DNA from: Pseudomonadota bacterium
GTDB taxonomy: Bacteria; Pseudomonadota; Gammaproteobacteria; Burkholderiales; Ferrovaceae
Reading direction: 5' to 3'
NCBI GenBank assembly: GCA_021796835.1
Contig: JAKABO010000016.1
Coordinates: forward strand, 1 to 47,553
DNA length: 47,553 nucleotides
Shown here in pieces: positions 2 to 9,405 of this stretch. Position numbers and translations under genes: made by a program. The notes under the pieces were generated by a model. That model made no database searches and was not told where the DNA came from. It saw nothing but the letters and a program-made list of their open reading frames with translations. Numbering within the stretch: the stretch's first letter is position 1; each line of letters begins with the position of its first letter.

Positions 2-109
2 TCTGCACCGCTGGATGAGCGTAAAGTAAAGAAGTCAACGGGACAGCGCCGACCAGCTGTGGAAACAAGGTCAGAAGAAAAACTTAAACTCACGCTGGAA
101 CTGTCTTGA
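2..109 (+). CDS. C-terminal end of an unidentified protein (partial)
   Basis: An open frame enters from the left edge and stops at TGA 107-109, giving 35 residues that begin SAPLDERKVKKSTGQRR and end KLKLTLELS. It is rich in Lys, Arg and Glu and ends in an alternating hydrophobic strand, as in small DNA-binding or mobilisation proteins, but 35 residues are too few to name a family. It converges on the minus-strand gene at 90-527 and overlaps its 3' end by 20 bases. It could also be a chance frame. Confidence 0.4.
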   Translation, partial: SAPLDERKVKKSTGQRRPAVETRSEEKLKLTLELS

Positions 110-527
110 CAGAGGGGTCCACTTTAAATCGCCATGTCATCCGGGGCTTGGCTTCTCCCTTTTTGGTCAATGGGACAAGCTCAAAGTCTTCACACCGGAC
201 ACGATGTTTTCGGGAATCTTTTAGCGATTCCAGATCGCGGGCTGCATGCTCCCCATTTTCGGTTACATGAAGCCACCACAGGACGGTATCGTCTGATTTT
301 TTCCAGAGGATTAGTTTGGCGTTGCCAAGCCCTTTGCGTTGTCGATAGGCTCGGGCATTTTTATCGGCATCAACTTGATAGTTGATGCAAAACTTATCAA
401 TCAGCCGAGGTAACTTTTCCGTACTGACTGACCCGTTACAGTACAACGGATAACCCCGCGTGGCCGCATCTGAAATGCGTTGCATGGCAACTTCTTTTTT
501 GTCGTGTATGGGAATGGTGTGTCTCAT
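90..527 (-). CDS. Conserved hypothetical protein of mobile-element type (145 aa)
   Basis: I do not recognise a function. The reading frame stays open upstream to base 749, but I place the start at ATG 527 because GGAGAAT sits directly upstream (about 534-540) and the extension runs through a terminator. The protein is soluble, with no signal peptide or membrane segment. It begins MRHTIPIHDKKEVAMQRI and has a middle part like YQVDADKNARAYRQRKGLG, followed by strand-forming segments (KLILWKKSDD, VLWWLHVTENG, YELV-like FELVPL, MTWRFKV). From memory, proteins of this layout ('Y.G.V...K...L..KF...Y..D...A..Y..R...G.A.L') occur on plasmids and integrative elements with no assigned role. It fits the island context: upstream of it on the same strand lie two terminators and the large RNA. 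Confidence 0.7.
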   Translation of the reverse strand: MRHTIPIHDKKEVAMQRISDAATRGYPLYCNGSVSTEKLPRLIDKFCINYQVDADKNARAYRQRKGLGNAKLILWKKSDDTVLWWLHVTENGEHAARDLESLKDSRKHRVRCEDFELVPLTKKGEAKPRMTWRFKVDPSVKTVPA

Positions 528-541
528 GGAATTATTCTCCA

Positions 542-602
542 AGTCGGACACACCACCGACTGTTGCAAGTATATATAAGATACTGTTTGTATGTGGATTA
601 TA
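542..602 (-). promoter_or_regulatory. Probable promoter and leader dyad of the 145-aa gene
   Basis: On the minus strand TATAAT lies at 602-597, directly after the terminator at 612-646. I see no good -35. Between it and the start codon is an inverted repeat AGTCGG (542-547) / CCGACT (556-561), which could be an operator or leader hairpin. The -10 is a good match, but the assignment rests on position alone. Confidence 0.3.
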
Positions 603-611
603 CCTTGCCAA

Positions 612-646
612 AGAAAAATAGAAAACCCCGGAGATCATCCGGGGTT
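612..646 (-). terminator. Intrinsic terminator (leftward)
   Basis: A perfect 9-bp stem, AACCCCGGA (624-632) / TCCGGGGTT (638-646), with a 5-base loop. On the minus strand it is followed by TTTTCTATTTTTC (down to about 611). On the plus strand no T run follows, so it acts leftward. It is the second of two terminators between the large RNA and the 145-aa gene. Confidence 0.75.
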
Positions 647-730
647 CATCATGCCAATAGGCTGCATCTGCTCTCTGCATTCTGGACAATGCGTTCGTAA
701 GTATTGGATTGCAGTGACGTGTAATTTTAG

Positions 731-771
731 AAAAAACAAAACCAGGCAATCCCTAAAAAGGGAAAGCCTGG
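731..771 (-). terminator. Strong intrinsic terminator ending the large RNA
   Basis: Read on the minus strand, the stem is CCAGGC (771-766) / GCCTGG (747-742) with an inner CCCT/AGGG helix (762-759 / 754-751). It is followed by TTTTGTTTTTT. It lies about 10-40 bases beyond the last hairpin of the structured region and gives the RNA a natural 3' end. Confidence 0.85.
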
Positions 772-789
772 CCAGACAGTTTTAAGACA

Positions 790-1980
790 TGCCGGTCGAT
801 CAATGGGCAAAAGCCCTATATGTTGGGTTATGGTTAAAAAATGCCTGTTCCAGAGGCTCCAAACTATCGCAAATCTCAACAACATCCGGTGCCACCCGGA
901 TTACGGAGCCGCGCCAACGGCCCCGTGAGTTACAACACACCCTGCCAAGGGTTTCAACATACACTTTCGACTGCTCCCGGCTTTCGCCTCATGCACACAG
1001 CAGCAAGTCTGCACATGAAGTTTGCCTCAACCGATTTTCTGGTCTGGCACTAGTTGCCAAGTCTCCCCCGCGTAGCCTGAACAGGTGCCACCCTGTCCAA
1101 CAACCTTAGCGGTTCCCACATTAGTTACCAAAGTCACGACCTTAGCCTGCTGGCTCCAGTTACAAGATTTTCTATGGGATCTTCCCATTCACCCACCGTC
1201 GAACTGCAACGGTCAGGTTTTCAGCGACCCAGGATTCCAAGACGGTTCGCTTACCCCAAGCAACTATCATCACACACTTAGCTTGCCATCCCTGCGGGAC
1301 GGTACAGGCATATCCAGTCACCCAACGCATCGCATCAGTCAGATTTCTCTGCTGGGACGCCTCTGTTTCATTACACCAGAGCTATCAACGATCCCCGCAG
1401 CTTGCGCTACAAGGTACCGGCCAAATCCACTCTCGCTCATTGGCCCTGATACGGTTTCCCGTACCCTCAGAAGTGCTGGTGTGGGTCACAGGTTCAACGG
1501 TCATCCGCTGCCCCTGGTCGGTATTAACGACAGGCCAACTGCCCTGTCTTCCGATCCTTTAATAACAAACCTTTCTGGTTTCTCCCAATAATCTGGAAAT
1601 CCCCCATGAGGCCCTGTCTGTGTCGCCCAAGCCTGTTTCAGGCTGGAATGAAGTCGAAACGTTAAAAAACGTAGCGCCCCGTTGCTTGCCGCACCAGCTC
1701 AATTACGAGCATGCGGCTTCCGCAGTCTATCCCGTTGGCACAGGATTCCCCATCCGGGGGAGTATGTCATCGTGTCTGAGGTTGGCGCCCCAGAACACGA
1801 ATAATGGCAGGTGTTCCGGGGTTGGCGTTCCCCATGCGACAGGGGAATCCTACCACCGGAACGATCTGATTTATCGCCCTTGGAATCCTTCTTTATTTGG
1901 GATGAATTCGCTCATGCTCTTCACCCATGAAAGGCCCGCCGTATCTCAGGGTTGCTTTTATTTCGGAGCAGAGAATTCAA
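790..1980 (-). ncRNA. Large ornate structured non-coding RNA (about 1.2 kb), class unassigned
   Basis: Neither strand carries a coherent protein. Minus-strand frames break repeatedly, for example TGATAG at 1387-1382. Read as minus-strand RNA, the region folds into a dense series of local helices: CCCCGGAACAC/GUGUUCUGGGG (1821-1811/1798-1788, 11 bp), GCCGCA/UGCGGC (1717-1712/1693-1688), AGCCUG/CAGGCU (1644-1630), GACAGG/CCUGUC (1548-1529), UACGG-GAAA-CCGUA inside CUGA/UCAG (1470-1446), GUAGC-GCAA-GCUGC (1410-1397), CAGA-GAAA-UCUG (1351-1340), CCGUCCC/GGGAUGG (1302-1286), AUGGGA/UCCCAU (1188-1174), GGACAGG/CCUGUUC (1098-1079), UGGCA/UGCCA (1059-1045), GGC-GAAA-GCC (988-979), ACCCU/AGGGU (952-939), ACGGGGCCG/CGGCUCCGU (926-903) and AUCCGG/CCGGAU (901-884). 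Five of these helices contain one wobble each; all five are G-U on this strand and would be A-C on the other. Four loops are GNRA. A terminator follows at 731-771. The 5' end is uncertain: a long-range pair at 1979-1973/1909-1903 suggests about 1980. I saw no group II domain V. Giant bacterial RNAs such as GOLLD, ROOL and OLE are the natural comparison, but I cannot assign one. Confidence 0.75.
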
Positions 1981-2066
1981 CCGTACAAAAAAATAATGGC
2001 CATTTTGTCCACATGAATCCCTGGTGGGGTACCATCGAATTTTTACCCAGACCGAATGGATAATCT

Positions 2067-5000
2067 GTGACTTCCCTGTCTGACCTGCTCGCCTCTTACC
2101 GCCAGATTGCCCAGACCCAACGGGAGAAAGGGACCTACTTCGAGAAGTTGATCCTGTGCTATTTAAAGACAGAACCCAAATATCGGGACCTGTACCAAGA
2201 CGCCTGGATGTATGAGGACTGGGCGCACCATCAAGGGCGGACGGGTCAGGACAGCGGGATCGATCTGGTCGCACAGACGCGGGGAACGGGAGAGTTTCAC
2301 GCCATCCAGTGCAAACTTTACGCAGAGGATTACAAACTCCAAAAAGGGGATATCGATAGTTTTCTGGCTGTATCAGGCAAAACCATTTTCACTCACCGGC
2401 TTGTTTTCAGCACCTGCCTGCATTGGAGTCACCACGCCGAGGATGCGATACAGGACCAAGCCATTCCAGTCAGCCGGGTAGATTTATACGATCTGGAGAA
2501 CAGCCAGATCGACTGGGCACAGTATCAGCCGAATCACGCCCCGGTCCTGAAACCCAAAAAGACGTTGCGGGATCACCAAAAATCCGCCCTGCGTGCCGTT
2601 CAGCATGGACTGGCAGATGCCGACCGAGGCAAACTCATCATGGCCTGTGGGACTGGCAAGACCTTGACCAGTCTCAAGATTGCCGAAGTTTTGGCCGGAC
2701 GAGGGAAACAGGTACTGTTTCTGGTGCCCAGCCTATCTTTGTTATCCCAAAGCCTGACGGAATGGACCCAGGAAAGCGATACCCCTCTGCACAGTTTTGC
2801 CGTCTGCTCGGACAGTGATGTGGGTAAGACAAAGCGGAAGAATCAGGAGGAAGATAAGGTCGAAACCTTGCTCCATGAACTACGCTACCCCGCCACCACG
2901 GATGCCAGGAGTCTCGCTCTGGCCGTTGCACGAAGACAGGATGATCAGGGGATGACGGTGATTTTTAGCACCTATCATTCCATCGAGGTCATTCACAAGG
3001 CTCAGAAAGAACATGGACTGCCTGCTTTCGACCTGATCATCTGTGACGAAGCCCACCGTACCACGGGAGCCACCTTTGAAAGCGAGGACGAAAGCGCTTT
3101 TGTCCGGGTTCATGATAACGATTATCTTAAGGGGGTCAAGCGTGTCTATATGACGGCCACCCCACGGATTTATGGGGACAATGCCAAGGCCAGCGCAGAA
3201 AAGGACAAGGTGACGCTCTGCTCCATGGACGACGAATTCCTGTATGGCAAAGAGTTGTTCGTCATCACCTTCTCTGAAGCGGTACAACGGGGTTTGTTGG
3301 TGGACTACAAGGTGATCGTGCTAGCCGTTGAGGAAACCCATATTAACCGCCGACTACAATCCTTACTGAAGGACGAGAACAACCAACTCAAGGTGGATGA
3401 CGCCGCCAAGATCATTGGTTGCTGGAAGGCTTTGTCCAAACAGGGACTCTTTGAACAGGGGGATGACGGGGAGGCCATGCGCCGGGCGGTGGCCTTCTGC
3501 CAGGTGATCGAAATCCAGAAGGGAGCCAAAACCCACAAAGTCAGTTCCAGGCAGATTGCCGGCATGTTCAAGGCAGTGGTGGATGCCTATCAGGAAACCG
3601 AAGAATTCGAGCAGGTTGCCCGCCTCAACTGCGAAGCGGAGCATGTGGACGGGAGCATGAATGCCAGCGAGAAGGAGGCTAAACTGGTCTGGCTCAAGGA
3701 ATCCTCTTCCGACAACACCTGCCGGATTCTGAGTAATGTGCGTTGCCTGTCCGAAGGGGTGGATGTGCCCGCCCTGGATGCCGTGCTGTTCCTCACACCC
3801 CGTAATTCACAGGTGGACGTGGTGCAATCCGTGGGCCGCGTCATGCGGAACTCCCCAGGCAAGAAACGAGGCTATGTGATCCTGCCCGTGGTGATCCCGG
3901 CAGGTGTGGAGCCCCATGAAGCCTTGAGCGACAACAAAACCTATGCGGTGGTATGGCAGGTGCTGCAAGCCTTGCGCTCCCACGATGACCGTTTTGATGC
4001 CATGGTCAACAAACTGGATCTGATTGGTCGTGACCCGCGCAAGATGGAAGTCATCGCCATCACCGACAAAATCCCGCAGAAACAGGAGAAACCCACCAAG
4101 GGCAAAACCAACCGTGCGGCTGGGAAAGGGAACTATAGACTTGGGGAACCGGTTCAAGCGGCCTACGCCGATAAACGCCAATCCGAACTCCACTTTGAAA
4201 TTGGCGAGATCGAACGCGCCATCTACGCCAAACTGGTCCAGAAGGTGGGGAATCGGCACCACTGGGAAGACTGGGCCAACGACATCGCCAAGATCGCCCG
4301 CACCCATATCGACCGCATTCACGCCATTCTGGAAAACCCCGACCATTCCCATGAACAGGAAGCCTTCGCCAGTTTTGCGAGTGAAATACGAAACAATCTG
4401 AACAACAGCATCAGTGATGATGAGATCATCGAAATGCTGGCCCAGCATCTGATAACCAAGCCAGTCTTTGACGCCCTGTTCGAGGGCTACAGTTTTGCCC
4501 AGCATAACCCCATCTCTCAGGCCATGCAGAGGGTGGTGGACATTTTGCAGGCTCACCAGATCAGCAAGGAAGCCGATACCCTGCAAGCCTTCTATGACAG
4601 CGTGAAGATGCGAGCTGATGGAATCGAGAACGCGGCAGGTAAGCAGAAGATCGTGGTGGAACTGTACGACAAGTTCTTCCGCAACGCCTTCCCGAGAATG
4701 ACGGAACGGCTGGGCATCGTCTATACCCCGGTGGAAGTGGTGGACTTCATCATCCACAGCGTCAACCACATCCTGAAAACCGAATTCAACCAGACCCTGG
4801 GAAGCCAGGGGGTTCATATCCTGGACCCCTTTACTGGGACCGGCACCTTCATCACTCGTTTGTTGCAGAGCGGACTGATTACCCTGGAAGAACTGCCCTA
4901 CAAGTATCAGCATGAAATCCATGCCAATGAAATCGTGTTGCTGGCCTACTACATCGCGGCCATCAACATCGAGGCGGTGTACCACAGCATCGTCGGCGGG

Positions 5001-7019
5001 GATTACCAACCCTTCGAGGGCATCTGCCTGACGGACACTTTCCAGCTCTACGAGAAGGAAGATCTGGTCGATGAGTTGCTGGTCGATAACAGCGCCCGCC
5101 GTAAGCGCCAGAAGAAACTGGATATACGGGTCATCTTTGGGAACCCGCCGTATTCCGCCGGTCAATCAAGTGCAAATGACAACAACCAGAATGTGGAATA
5201 CCCACACCTGGATAGTCGTATCCGCAGCACCTATGCCGACCGTTCAACGGCAACCAACAAAAACGCCCTGTACGACAGTTATATTCGCGCCATCCGTTGG
5301 GCCAGCGACAGAATCGGGGATAGTGGGGTGATTGGGTTTGTGTCTGGCTCGGGTTTTGCGGAAAAACCCGCCATGGACGGTTTGCGAAAGTGTCTGGCGG
5401 AAGAGTTTTCCAACATTCATTTGCTGAACCTGCGCGGCGATATTCGAAAGAACATGCTGAGTAAAGGCCGGGCAAAGGAAGGCCAAAACATTTTCGGCAG
5501 CGGTAGCATGACTGGTATTGCCATTACCCTGTTTGCGAAAAATCCGAATGCGGCACAACATGGTCAGATTTATTTCCACGACATCGGGGATGATCTGACC
5601 CGCGAAGACAAGTTGGAGAAAATCACCGAATTTGCCAGCATCGCCGGAATCACCGCAGCCAACGGCTGGCAGACAATCACACCAGACCAGCACGGTGACT
5701 GGCTCAATCAGCGCGATGACGGATTCAGCGCATTTATCAGTCTTGGAGACAAGAAAGATGCCAACACGGCGGTGTTGTTTGAAAATTATTCACGGGGCGT
5801 AGCAACGGGTAGGGATTCCTGGTGCTACAACGCCTCCAAAGTTGGCGTCATCAACAATATGAAGCGCATGATTGGTTCCTATAACGGCGAAGTCGAGAGG
5901 TTTTCAGAATCCTGCGCCGGTCTGGATAGGTCCACACGAGAAGCCAGAGTAGATGGGTTTATCAATACCGATCCGACACGGATCAGTTGGACAAGGGCTC
6001 TGAAGCAGGATTTGGTCAAGGATCGCCGATTTGTCTTTGAAGAAAATTGCCTGACACCCAGCCTGTACCGCCCTTTTACCAAGCAATGGTTATATTTCAA
6101 CCGTCGCTTCAACGAGATGGTGTACCAGATGCCCCGGATTTTTCCAGACGAAAAGGCGGAAAATCTGGTGATTTGTGTGTCGGGCATTGGAGCCAGGAGC
6201 GGGTTTTCTGCGTTGATGGCGAATGCGTTGCCATGCCTTGATATTGTCGAGAAAAGCCAATGCTTCCCGCTGTACCTATACGATGATGAAGCACGAACCG
6301 AGGAGCCGGTCGGGTCCAGGATGGAGAGCCTGTTTGGTGACTCCCCCAATCCCGTACCACGACCCCGCACCCGCCGGGATGCCATAACGAATGAGGGGCT
6401 TGGCCATTTCATGATGGCTTATCCTGGAGAAGTCATCAGCAAAGAAGATGTTTTCTACTATGTGTATGGCTTGCTTCACTCACCGGACTACCGAGAAAGG
6501 TACGCTGACAATCTTGCCAAGGAACTGCCGCGCATCCCTTGCGTGAAGACTGCCGCTGACTTCTGGGCGTTTTCTCAGGCTGGGCGCAAGTTGGCTGACC
6601 TGCACCTGAACTATGAAACCGTGGAGCCGTACCCGCTGACCATCACGGTTCACGGGGATGCGCCTCTGACCGATGCCGATTACCGGGTGGAGAAGATGCG
6701 TTACGGCAAGACCGGGAAGGAAAAAGACCTGACCACCGTTCACTACAACAACCGGATCACGGTATCGGGTATACCCTTGGAAGCCTACGAGTACATTGTG
6801 AACGGGAAGCCTGCACTAGACTGGGTGGTGGAACGCCAGTGCGTCAAAACCGACAAGGACAGCGGGATCGTCAACGACGCCAATGACTGGGCCGTGGAAA
6901 CCTTGGGTAATCCCCGGTATCCTCTGGAACTGTTCCAGAGAATCATCACCGTCAGTCTGGAGACCTTGAGGATTGTGCAGTCATTGCCCGAATTGGAAAT
7001 TCAACTGACAAATTGTTAA
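2067..7019 (+). CDS. Type ISP-like restriction-modification enzyme: Mrr-type nuclease, SF2 helicase/translocase and N6-adenine methyltransferase in one chain
   Basis: A single 1650-residue polypeptide that should protect host DNA by methylating adenine in its target and cut unmodified DNA after translocation. The order of domains is clear. An Mrr/PD-(D/E)xK nuclease comes first (GQDSGIDLV about residue 60, then QCK about 81-83). SF2 helicase motifs follow: ACGTGKT about 195, DEAHR about 325, MTATPR, and a late SVGRVMRNS. The gamma-class methyltransferase has YTPVEVVDFI, the SAM motif DPFTGTGTF about 920 and the catalytic NPPY about 1025. The last 500 or so residues are probably the target-recognition part. 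Layout and size match single-chain type ISP enzymes such as LlaGI. The start is GTG 2067, whose N-terminus (SLSDLLASYRQ..REKGTYFE) is typical; no good ribosome site precedes it. It is divergent from the large RNA, and a small membrane protein follows after 12 bases. Confidence 0.93.
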   Translation: MTSLSDLLASYRQIAQTQREKGTYFEKLILCYLKTEPKYRDLYQDAWMYEDWAHHQGRTGQDSGIDLVAQTRGTGEFHAIQCKLYAEDYKLQKGDIDSFLAVSGKTIFTHRLVFSTCLHWSHHAEDAIQDQAIPVSRVDLYDLENSQIDWAQYQPNHAPVLKPKKTLRDHQKSALRAVQHGLADADRGKLIMACGTGKTLTSLKIAEVLAGRGKQVLFLVPSLSLLSQSLTEWTQESDTPLHSFAVCSDSDVGKTKRKNQEEDKVETLLHELRYPATTDARSLALAVARRQDDQGMTVIFSTYHSIEVIHKAQKEHGLPAFDLIICDEAHRTTGATFESEDESAFVRVHDNDYLKGVKRVYMTATPRIYGDNAKASAEKDKVTLCSMDDEFLYGKELFVITFSEAVQRGLLVDYKVIVLAVEETHINRRLQSLLKDENNQLKVDDAAKIIGCWKALSKQGLFEQGDDGEAMRRAVAFCQVIEIQKGAKTHKVSSRQIAGMFKAVVDAYQETEEFEQVARLNCEAEHVDGSMNASEKEAKLVWLKESSSDNTCRILSNVRCLSEGVDVPALDAVLFLTPRNSQVDVVQSVGRVMRNSPGKKRGYVILPVVIPAGVEPHEALSDNKTYAVVWQVLQALRSHDDRFDAMVNKLDLIGRDPRKMEVIAITDKIPQKQEKPTKGKTNRAAGKGNYRLGEPVQAAYADKRQSELHFEIGEIERAIYAKLVQKVGNRHHWEDWANDIAKIARTHIDRIHAILENPDHSHEQEAFASFASEIRNNLNNSISDDEIIEMLAQHLITKPVFDALFEGYSFAQHNPISQAMQRVVDILQAHQISKEADTLQAFYDSVKMRADGIENAAGKQKIVVELYDKFFRNAFPRMTERLGIVYTPVEVVDFIIHSVNHILKTEFNQTLGSQGVHILDPFTGTGTFITRLLQSGLITLEELPYKYQHEIHANEIVLLAYYIAAINIEAVYHSIVGGDYQPFEGICLTDTFQLYEKEDLVDELLVDNSARRKRQKKLDIRVIFGNPPYSAGQSSANDNNQNVEYPHLDSRIRSTYADRSTATNKNALYDSYIRAIRWASDRIGDSGVIGFVSGSGFAEKPAMDGLRKCLAEEFSNIHLLNLRGDIRKNMLSKGRAKEGQNIFGSGSMTGIAITLFAKNPNAAQHGQIYFHDIGDDLTREDKLEKITEFASIAGITAANGWQTITPDQHGDWLNQRDDGFSAFISLGDKKDANTAVLFENYSRGVATGRDSWCYNASKVGVINNMKRMIGSYNGEVERFSESCAGLDRSTREARVDGFINTDPTRISWTRALKQDLVKDRRFVFEENCLTPSLYRPFTKQWLYFNRRFNEMVYQMPRIFPDEKAENLVICVSGIGARSGFSALMANALPCLDIVEKSQCFPLYLYDDEARTEEPVGSRMESLFGDSPNPVPRPRTRRDAITNEGLGHFMMAYPGEVISKEDVFYYVYGLLHSPDYRERYADNLAKELPRIPCVKTAADFWAFSQAGRKLADLHLNYETVEPYPLTITVHGDAPLTDADYRVEKMRYGKTGKEKDLTTVHYNNRITVSGIPLEAYEYIVNGKPALDWVVERQCVKTDKDSGIVNDANDWAVETLGNPRYPLELFQRIITVSLETLRIVQSLPELEIQLTNC

Positions 7020-7543: not shown

Positions 7544-8919
7544 ACACAATGCGCGGAGTCGGATTGCAGGGTTGGTTCAATACGTCACCTCGCTTTCGGA
7601 GATTGAATTTGCTCATTTTTCGTTTGACACCTCGAGGATTGCGCTTGCCGCGGCTGGTGACGGCGCGAACGGAGGCGATTTCGCGCAGGACGCTGTCGAG
7701 CCAGGATTTGCGCTGCTCAGGGGGGAATAGCGCTGGCGGCTGGAAGGCGGCGCTTGAGCACGCGCACCGCATGGATGAACGACAGGTCCTCCGAACTCTG
7801 TGCGGTTCTGGCAGCCGCCTCGGTCATCAGGCGGCGAATGGCGGCATGAGCAATCAGCAGCGCATAGAACTCCTGTTCCACCAATTCCGGGCGCTTGCTG
7901 CGCAAAACGACAGCACGGTCGGCCAGATGCACCTTGAATTCGTCGAATGTCTGCTCGATCGTCCAGCGGCGATGGTACAGCGCCGCCAGTTCGACCGCTG
8001 GCGCAGCCTCGGCTTCGAGCCAGTTGGTGATCAGGCGATAAGCAGGTTCGGGGTCGGGAATTCCGTCAAGTTGATACTCGACGACCCGCACCACCGTGCC
8101 GTTGGTCTGGTGGCGACGATCCGTGTCGCTGGGATACAGGGTGGTCAGGTACGAGCCGTCGGCGAGGGAGCGTTCGCAGGGCAGGCGCAGGTTCTTCTTG
8201 ACCCGGAACAACAACTTGGCGCCGGTCTTGCAGGCGCGCTGCCAGAAAGGGAAGCCGAAGAAGTTGCGGTCGGCGGTGACCACCATGGAAGCATCCGCCT
8301 GATCGATGACTGCTTCAGCCAAGGTCAGTTCGCCGGTCTTATAGGGGCCGTGGCTGGCGAAGCACAAGGTGTGCGTGCCACATTCCGCGAGCGCGACAAA
8401 GCGCAGTTGCGGAAATGCGGACTCCCCGCGCGAGGCGGCCGGGTAACCGAAGGTGCCGGCGTTGGCGGCTTCATCGGGCATGTCCAGGGTGGAGCCGTCG
8501 ATCGCCATCAGCCGCAAGCCGCGATAGCACACACCCGGCATGTCTGCCGGGCCGTGCGGACGCACCTGCTCCTGGTACAGGTCCCGCAAGGGTGCCGCCC
8601 CCACCTGCTCGCGGGCTTGCGAGATGGCGCCCTTGGTGACCGTGGCCTTGGCAACGCCTTCATCCCCCAGCAACTGGCGCAGCCCTTCAACCACCAGTCG
8701 CAGGACTTCTTCGTAGGCGACGTCGGCGTACAACACCATCGCCATCACAAAATACACCAGCACTTCGTGGGGCAACCCGCGCTTGCGTTTGCTCTGCGCG
8801 CCGTGCGCCACCAGCACCGCCCGCACTTTTTCTACCGGGCAATTCAACGCCAGGTAGCCTACCGTCAGATAATCTGCCAGCCTTGCTCCTGTCGACAACT
8901 CCGCCTTCGTTCTCGCCAT
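7536..8919 (-). pseudogene. IS4-family DDE transposase, frameshifted near its 3' end
   Basis: The intact first frame runs from ATG 8919 to a TGA at 7717 (400 residues). It has an IS4-type N-terminal domain, the first catalytic Asp in AIDGSTLD, the second in TADRNFF and the Glu in YHRRWTIEQTFDEFK. All three catalytic acids are present. After ...SAIPP the frame stops in a run of six C. Skipping one C continues in frame as PEQRKSWLDSVLREIAS to 7536, with the RGVKRKMSKF tail usual for this transposase group. Five C would restore the protein, so a one-base insertion has removed about 60 C-terminal residues. A sequencing error or programmed +1 slippage are alternatives. An RBS-like AGGAGGTGTGAC precedes the start. 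Confidence 0.85.
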
Positions 8920-9314: not shown

Positions 9315-9405
9315 TGGCGGAGAGGGCGGGATTCGAACCCGCGTTAGGGTATTACCCTAAACACGCTTTCCAGGCGTGCGACTTAAACCGCTCATCCACC
9401 TCTCC
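9315..9405 (-). tRNA. serX: tRNA-Ser (anticodon GGA)
   Basis: On the minus strand GGAGAGG (from 9405) pairs with CCTCTCC (9325-9319). The discriminator is G and CCA is encoded (9317-9315). The anticodon loop is CTGGAAA, giving GGA. The long variable arm (TAGGGTAATACCCTA) and GGTTCGAATCC T-arm mark a serine tRNA. It starts 8 bases after the rpmG stop, so it is probably co-transcribed with rpmB-rpmG and trimmed out. Its 3' end faces the accessory island, the usual position of an integrase attachment site. Confidence 0.96.

Follow-up and report, generated by a model that had tools for sequence, protein, structure and literature searches.

The question raised by this locus is what a stretch of about 1.2 kb that lacks genes does for the mobile element in which it lies, an element whose cargo includes a Type ISP restriction-modification enzyme. 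The window is the whole stretch of DNA analysed, 47,553 nucleotides of contig JAKABO010000016.1 from a bacterium of the family Ferrovaceae. An earlier note, made from the letters alone, had described here a giant structured RNA, "previously unassigned," on the minus strand. Judged by its sequence, structure, and splice-site motifs, the 1.2-kb feature encodes a group II intron RNA in circularly permuted (CP) form. This ribozyme class was published in 2021 (Roth et al., PMC8637638), and the idea of a new or unassigned RNA was dropped on finding that paper; the function proposed below is the new part. In PMC8637638 the roles of CP group II ribozymes and their partner protein AcpG are posed as an open question, and its one use of the word relaxase is in the title of a reference.

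The RNA gene extends over 731..1990 on the minus strand, with its 5′ end near 1990 and its 3′ end predicted at a hairpin and T run at about 731-771. The hairpin and T run that had been noted there as a strong leftward terminator are present, but the site is absent from the terminator-scan list. In alignments with relatives the match begins at about 1990 or 1897 and runs to about 886 of the window, which roughly agrees with the ends given in the earlier note (790..1980). The gene for the Type ISP enzyme (2067-7019; Type_ISP_C E 3.4e-117, Mrr_cat_2, ResIII, N6_Mtase) is divergent from the RNA, and an IS4-type transposase (7720-8919, minus strand) lies between the restriction gene and a tRNA-Ser (9315-9405). 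The pairing of the RNA with a Type ISP enzyme recurs in a congeneric genome (G004, L010), where both belong to a chromosomal island that also has integrase, AlpA, and AcpG.

The minus strand from 1001 to 1990 folds with a z score of -3.89 against 20 dinucleotide shuffles, the plus strand with -2.90. For 58 non-redundant relatives (mean identity 56%), RNAalifold gives -292 kcal/mol, compared to -77 ± 6 for ten column-shuffled controls. We tested covariation with our own tree-simulated, R-scape-like procedure (60 null alignments, site rates kept), by which 47 of 261,726 column pairs covary at E ≤ 0.05; 44 of the 47 lie inside the RNAalifold consensus, an overlap to be read with the fact that this consensus itself draws on covariation. 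The fold score and the covariation in the 58 relatives bear out the earlier claim that the mobile element encodes a large structured RNA on its minus strand, and the covariation check that the earlier note had proposed on an alignment of homologues is thus significant. A total of 148 consensus pairs map onto the window, where 120 are canonical (23 of these G-U), and the window's own minimum-energy fold has 56 of the 148.

The finer structural claims fared unevenly. All four GNRA loops that had been proposed occur in the minimum-energy fold of the window, but only those at 1458-1455 and 1405-1402 are also found in the consensus fold. Of five helices said to carry a single G-U site, four do (1817/1792, 1300/1288, 1097/1080, and 922/907), while 1409/1399 is U-U, the real pair being 1409-1398. 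The window fold contains the pairs 1300/1288, 1097/1080, and 922/907, but 1817 pairs with 1858; of the five helices, only those of 1409 and 1097 contain pairs with significant covariation. A conserved open reading frame, which had been named as a finding that would speak against an RNA, is not evident in the homologues; there is a mild excess of stop-free stretches of at least 100 codons (92 in the 58 cores, compared to 54-72 in five shuffles), counted with frame homology left aside.

The conserved core of the window RNA (1740-1043, minus strand, the extent of the nhmmer profile match) is found by the iterated family profile at E 3.9e-89, and the same profile finds plasmid pPNAP05 of P. naphthalenivorans (L072) at E 1.1e-86. 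An expressed CP group II RNA on pPNAP05 is described in PMC8637638, and since this published example falls among the relatives of the window RNA the class is a known one. According to the same text, domains D5-D6 precede D1-D4 in these RNAs, and the splice sites, NU and GGGCG, are internal and in reversed order, separated by a linker of 15-86 nt. RNAs from five species, other than that of the window, were reported there to back-splice in vitro, yielding a small circle and a branched RNA.

The same parts can be recognized in the window, all on the minus strand. A D5-like hairpin (1688..1718) has the AGC triad (1718-1716), five pairs, and a U-N bulge on the 3′ strand, and is strongly covarying; in the relatives it is the most conspicuous hairpin, with five covarying pairs and the U-N bulge, the triad being CGC instead of AGC in some of them (e.g., L099). 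It is followed by a D6-like hairpin (1647..1680) with a bulged branch adenosine at 1654, within CGACUUC. The 3′ splice site (NU) is predicted after 1647 and the 5′ splice site motif GGGCG lies at 1628-1624, so that the predicted excised circle is the linker of 18 nt (1646-1629) between the reversed sites; linkers are 13-75 nt in the relatives where they could be computed. The counterpart of D1-D4 (1043..1623) is proposed from the consensus fold and covarying pairs and is treated here as one block, and covarying helices are found 3′ of D5-D6 in the alignment of the 58 relatives. The CGA.. branch motif is present in 60 of the 64 aligned rows. GGGCGA[CU] is present in all 64, although the genome-scan rows had been preselected with a pattern containing TGGGCGAC, and the L072 match, which lies ahead of the branch motif, has probably been misplaced.

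The likeness to the CP group II or "T-large" RNAs of Roth et al. (2021, PMC8637638) extends to D5-D6 at the 5′ end with the AGC triad and UN bulge, the bulged branch A, the reversed NU and GGGCG sites around a short linker, an adjoining AcpG, and both plasmid and chromosomal hosts. The window RNA differs in its length (about 1.2 kb, compared to an average of about 900 nt), in its extra 5′ and 3′ structure, and in the truncation of its acpG.

Some of the large GOLLD, ROOL, and OLE RNAs reside in mobile DNA. These three, of a similar size class and named in the earlier note together with group II introns as identities to be checked in Rfam, were ruled out by the lack of any Rfam model match. At its thresholds Rfam 15 has no match to the window stretch, leaving the CP group II class undetected, and the model of canonical group II introns (RF00029) does not match the stretch either. 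The hint at group II introns was nevertheless close, apart from the permutation of the domains. For L062, a relative from E. coli, the D5-D6 hairpins align end to end with RF00029, at 16.3 bits compared to a gathering score of 40. Searched against 16 whole records, RF00029 gave nothing at E ≤ 10, the prefilter passing no candidate. Canonical group II introns are thus resembled in D5/D6 and in the predicted maturase- or reverse transcriptase-like fold of AcpG, but differ in domain order and in scoring above the Rfam gathering threshold; the CP class, as described in PMC8637638, lacks an internal ORF. A phage origin of the element was considered and rejected: blastn of the window copy against phages found no match, and none of 57 viral_contigs loci from three pattern scans carries the RNA by profile.

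Among 61 genomes searched by BLAST, relatives of the RNA occur in seven, including the window's own. An Azotobacter plasmid has 54 bp in common with the window copy, and its own copy of the RNA matches 45 plasmid records, ranging from 3-kb E. coli plasmids to those of Deinococcus and acetic acid bacteria; the profile finds the RNA in all 19 of these records that were opened. Scanning one genome per species with a sequence pattern produced 62 loci, 45 of which were confirmed by profile at E < 1e-40; the 17 without the RNA served as controls. Plasmids of 3-6 kb, which like chromosomal islands are typical carriers of mobilization modules, are among the hosts. In E. coli the RNA is present on seven small and 15 large plasmids across 21 genomes, and two opened 3-kb plasmids have the RNA and lack acpG. 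One of the seven hosts of small plasmids also harbors a 34-kb plasmid with the RNA, AcpG, and a T4SS; in this single case the small plasmid would look like a helper-dependent satellite of the large one.

A role as a plasmid replication RNA was rejected, the RNA being found on RepL, TrfA, and other replicons. The same was concluded for pMtBL (L068), the base of the Pseudoalteromonas TAC125 cold-expression vectors, which carries an unannotated CP group II RNA and whose orf1 is an AcpG homologue. Its RNA (3103-3824) lies outside the sufficient OriR (1918-2759) from which the vectors replicate, according to PMC10033558, and is therefore dispensable for replication there. Replication of pTT8 is likewise unaffected by deletion of most of the ribozyme, as cited in PMC8637638.

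Other copies are hidden or interrupted. On Halomonas plasmid pHaKG2_3 a 274-aa "hypothetical protein" has been annotated antisense to the ribozyme core (L064, 1006-1830, minus strand); this is probably spurious, and similar annotations may conceal further copies. The CP RNA of Pandoraea (L070, 2071-3501) is interrupted by an insertion of the IS256 family.

In PMC8637638, AcpG is described as a protein of about 260 aa adjoining the CP group II RNA (Roth et al. 2021). The acpG of the window (93..749, minus strand) is C-terminally truncated: positions 3-135 of the 264 in the family profile match at 123-518, and no Pfam match was found. The window copy may consequently rely on another AcpG or be decaying. 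RNA and AcpG are strongly linked. In the genome scan acpG was found at 35 of the 45 RNA loci, compared to none of the 17 pattern-matching loci without the RNA, and conversely the RNA is present in 24 of the 30 loci retrieved by AcpG alone; ten of the 45 RNA loci lack a nearby acpG, some of these being cut by contig ends.

By sequence, AcpG has no PDB match, no Pfam or NCBIfam family over cut-off, no PADLOC match, no match to reverse transcriptases among the families listed, and a best E of 0.022 against PHROGs. Two structure models of AcpG rank group II intron reverse transcriptases and maturases first, with nothing at E ≤ 0.001 in Foldseek or in a BFVD fold search. The predicted fold resembles the palm and thumb of a reverse transcriptase, other folds being possible, and this would give AcpG a plausible ancestry. 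The columns conserved at 80% or more in 60 members include no DD, that is, no catalytic Asp pair; Glu102 and Arg176 are invariant.

Relatives of T4CP are found in seven and of VirB11 in 11 of the 45 RNA loci (at most 8 kb each), compared to none in the 17 control loci; neither occurs in the 30 loci fetched with AcpG, which extend over 2.0-3.8 kb. We surveyed the 16 RNA loci at which a relative of T4CP or VirB11 was seen. Seven of these have the full order VirB11-AcpG-RNA-T4CP, five (L073, L096, L116, L123, and L139) with one common strand pattern (VirB11-, AcpG-, RNA+, T4CP+), one (L124) with T4CP inverted, and one (L098) with VirB11 inverted. Seven more agree as far as their DNA extends (L069, L070, L093, L106, L114, L131, and L141), while L065 and L080, which represent one E. 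coli type, deviate (VirB11-T4CP-AcpG-RNA). The order recurs in alpha- and gammaproteobacterial loci.

Relatives of the E. coli T4CP are present in 1222 plasmid records, 1094 of which are typed mobilizable or conjugative. Besides RNA carriers, three of the 1222 were opened for comparison (H99, H102, and H113, standing next below the E. coli carriers or lower). The comparison loci L185, L186, and L187 have the arrangement VirB11(-), a 237-aa protein(-), a gap of 0.86-1.03 kb, and T4CP(+), and their VirB11-T4CP stretches contain neither the RNA nor AcpG. The 237-aa proteins match the MobC relaxase model NF041423 (E 3e-9, 1.7e-15, and 1.1e-15), none of them reaching its curated cut-off of 200 bits. 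By whole record all three comparison plasmids match this model, and L187 is typed MOBC by PLSDB. Comparison of VirB11-MobC-gap-T4CP with VirB11-AcpG-RNA-T4CP assigns AcpG to the slot of the relaxase and the RNA to that of the gap, which presumably holds oriT in L185-L187. The pair thus has the same position in the transfer locus as the relaxase and intergenic region of a MOBC module, with two differences: the RNA fills the intergenic slot, and AcpG shows no sequence relation to MobC.

Most RNA-bearing plasmids appear to be without a recognizable relaxase. Typing classes 42 of the 45 RNA-matching plasmid records as non-mobilizable and three as mobilizable; for the 28 matching AcpG, which include the record with the pPNAP05 homologue, the numbers are 27 and one. 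In 19 whole RNA plasmids, the MOBP, MOBF, MOBQ, MOBH, and MobC families gave no match over any cut-off tried (PF03432, PF08751, PF03389, PF07514, and NF041423), the MOBV model (PF01076) being uninformative with a silent control. PF13814 (Replic_Relax), whose control was also silent, produced one weak sub-threshold match on a Deinococcus plasmid. VirB4 is present in five of the 19. Annotated on the 34-kb E. coli plasmid are VirB4, B8, B9, and B10; it also has a TraD-like coupling protein and an ATPase resembling VirB11, and no relaxase is annotated. Non-mobilizable typing can, however, miss relaxases: L185 and L186 are typed in this way yet carry divergent MobC-family relaxases that go untyped.

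On balance we favor the interpretation that the CP group II RNA and AcpG together form the DNA-processing (relaxase/oriT) part of the transfer system of the mobile element. AcpG would bind the RNA as a maturase does, the complex would mark or cut the DNA of the element at the RNA locus or at a match to the exon-binding sequence, and the processed DNA would be passed by the complex to the coupling protein. If correct, this would account for some of the plasmids in which a secretion channel is present and a known relaxase is missing; the recurrent relaxase-plus-gap slot makes the function of the CP group II RNA and AcpG directly testable. In the most speculative step the cut would be made by the ribozyme itself, reverse splicing leaving the RNA joined to the 5′ end of the DNA, much as a relaxase is. 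The complete form of this idea is possible but doubtful: AcpG, an inactive reverse transcriptase that has become a maturase, would hold the ribozyme while this cuts one DNA strand by reverse splicing, stays on the 5′ end through its RNA, and is delivered to the type IV secretion channel by the coupling protein, so that conjugation would begin with a ribozyme and not with a protein. Were the RNA to make the cut, it would to our knowledge be the first ribozyme in nature found to initiate the transfer of DNA from cell to cell.

The cut might instead be made by protein. AcpG could be an unrecognized relaxase or accessory nickase and the RNA a structured cis element, a regulator, or an oriT-linked cofactor rather than the catalyst. 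AcpG does occupy the slot of the MobC relaxase, MobC-like proteins can go untyped, and the invariant Glu102 and Arg176 would suit such an enzyme. We consider this unlikely, since the predicted fold of AcpG ranks reverse transcriptases first (with other folds possible), the two opened 3-kb E. coli plasmids have the RNA in the absence of acpG, and ribozyme motifs, needless in a passive element, are kept in nearly all aligned relatives. Among the 60 AcpG members compared with known relaxase families one touches Replic_Relax, at E 0.11.

The proximity to T4SS genes might also reflect nothing but common residence on plasmids, the RNA and AcpG being a module for maintenance, regulation, defence, or plasmid competition that reverse-splices into RNA or DNA targets in trans. 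Trans targeting of RNA or DNA is suggested in PMC8637638, and the RNA is indeed found on tiny plasmids that lack a T4SS, as well as in chromosomal islands that contain a restriction-modification gene. A module of this kind seems distinctly improbable in view of the repeated VirB11-to-T4CP placement in alpha- and gammaproteobacterial loci, the relaxases missing from the RNA plasmids, and the lack of a PADLOC match for AcpG. That the RNA is an intron derivative, selfish or in decay, that does nothing for the element carrying it, as the truncated acpG of the window and the split Pandoraea copy might suggest, is very hard to reconcile with retained catalytic motifs and extensive covariation across 58 diverged relatives.

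Two further features of the relatives deserve mention. In Acinetobacter (L077 and L078) a longer AcpG-like protein (373/471 aa) is matched in two pieces, and the RNA profile match is also in two parts. Located 3′ of the RNA on a 3-kb (L062, 2289-2741) and a 30-kb (L065, 6347-6805) E. coli plasmid is a protein of 150/152 aa that belongs to no known family, the two versions being 73% identical.
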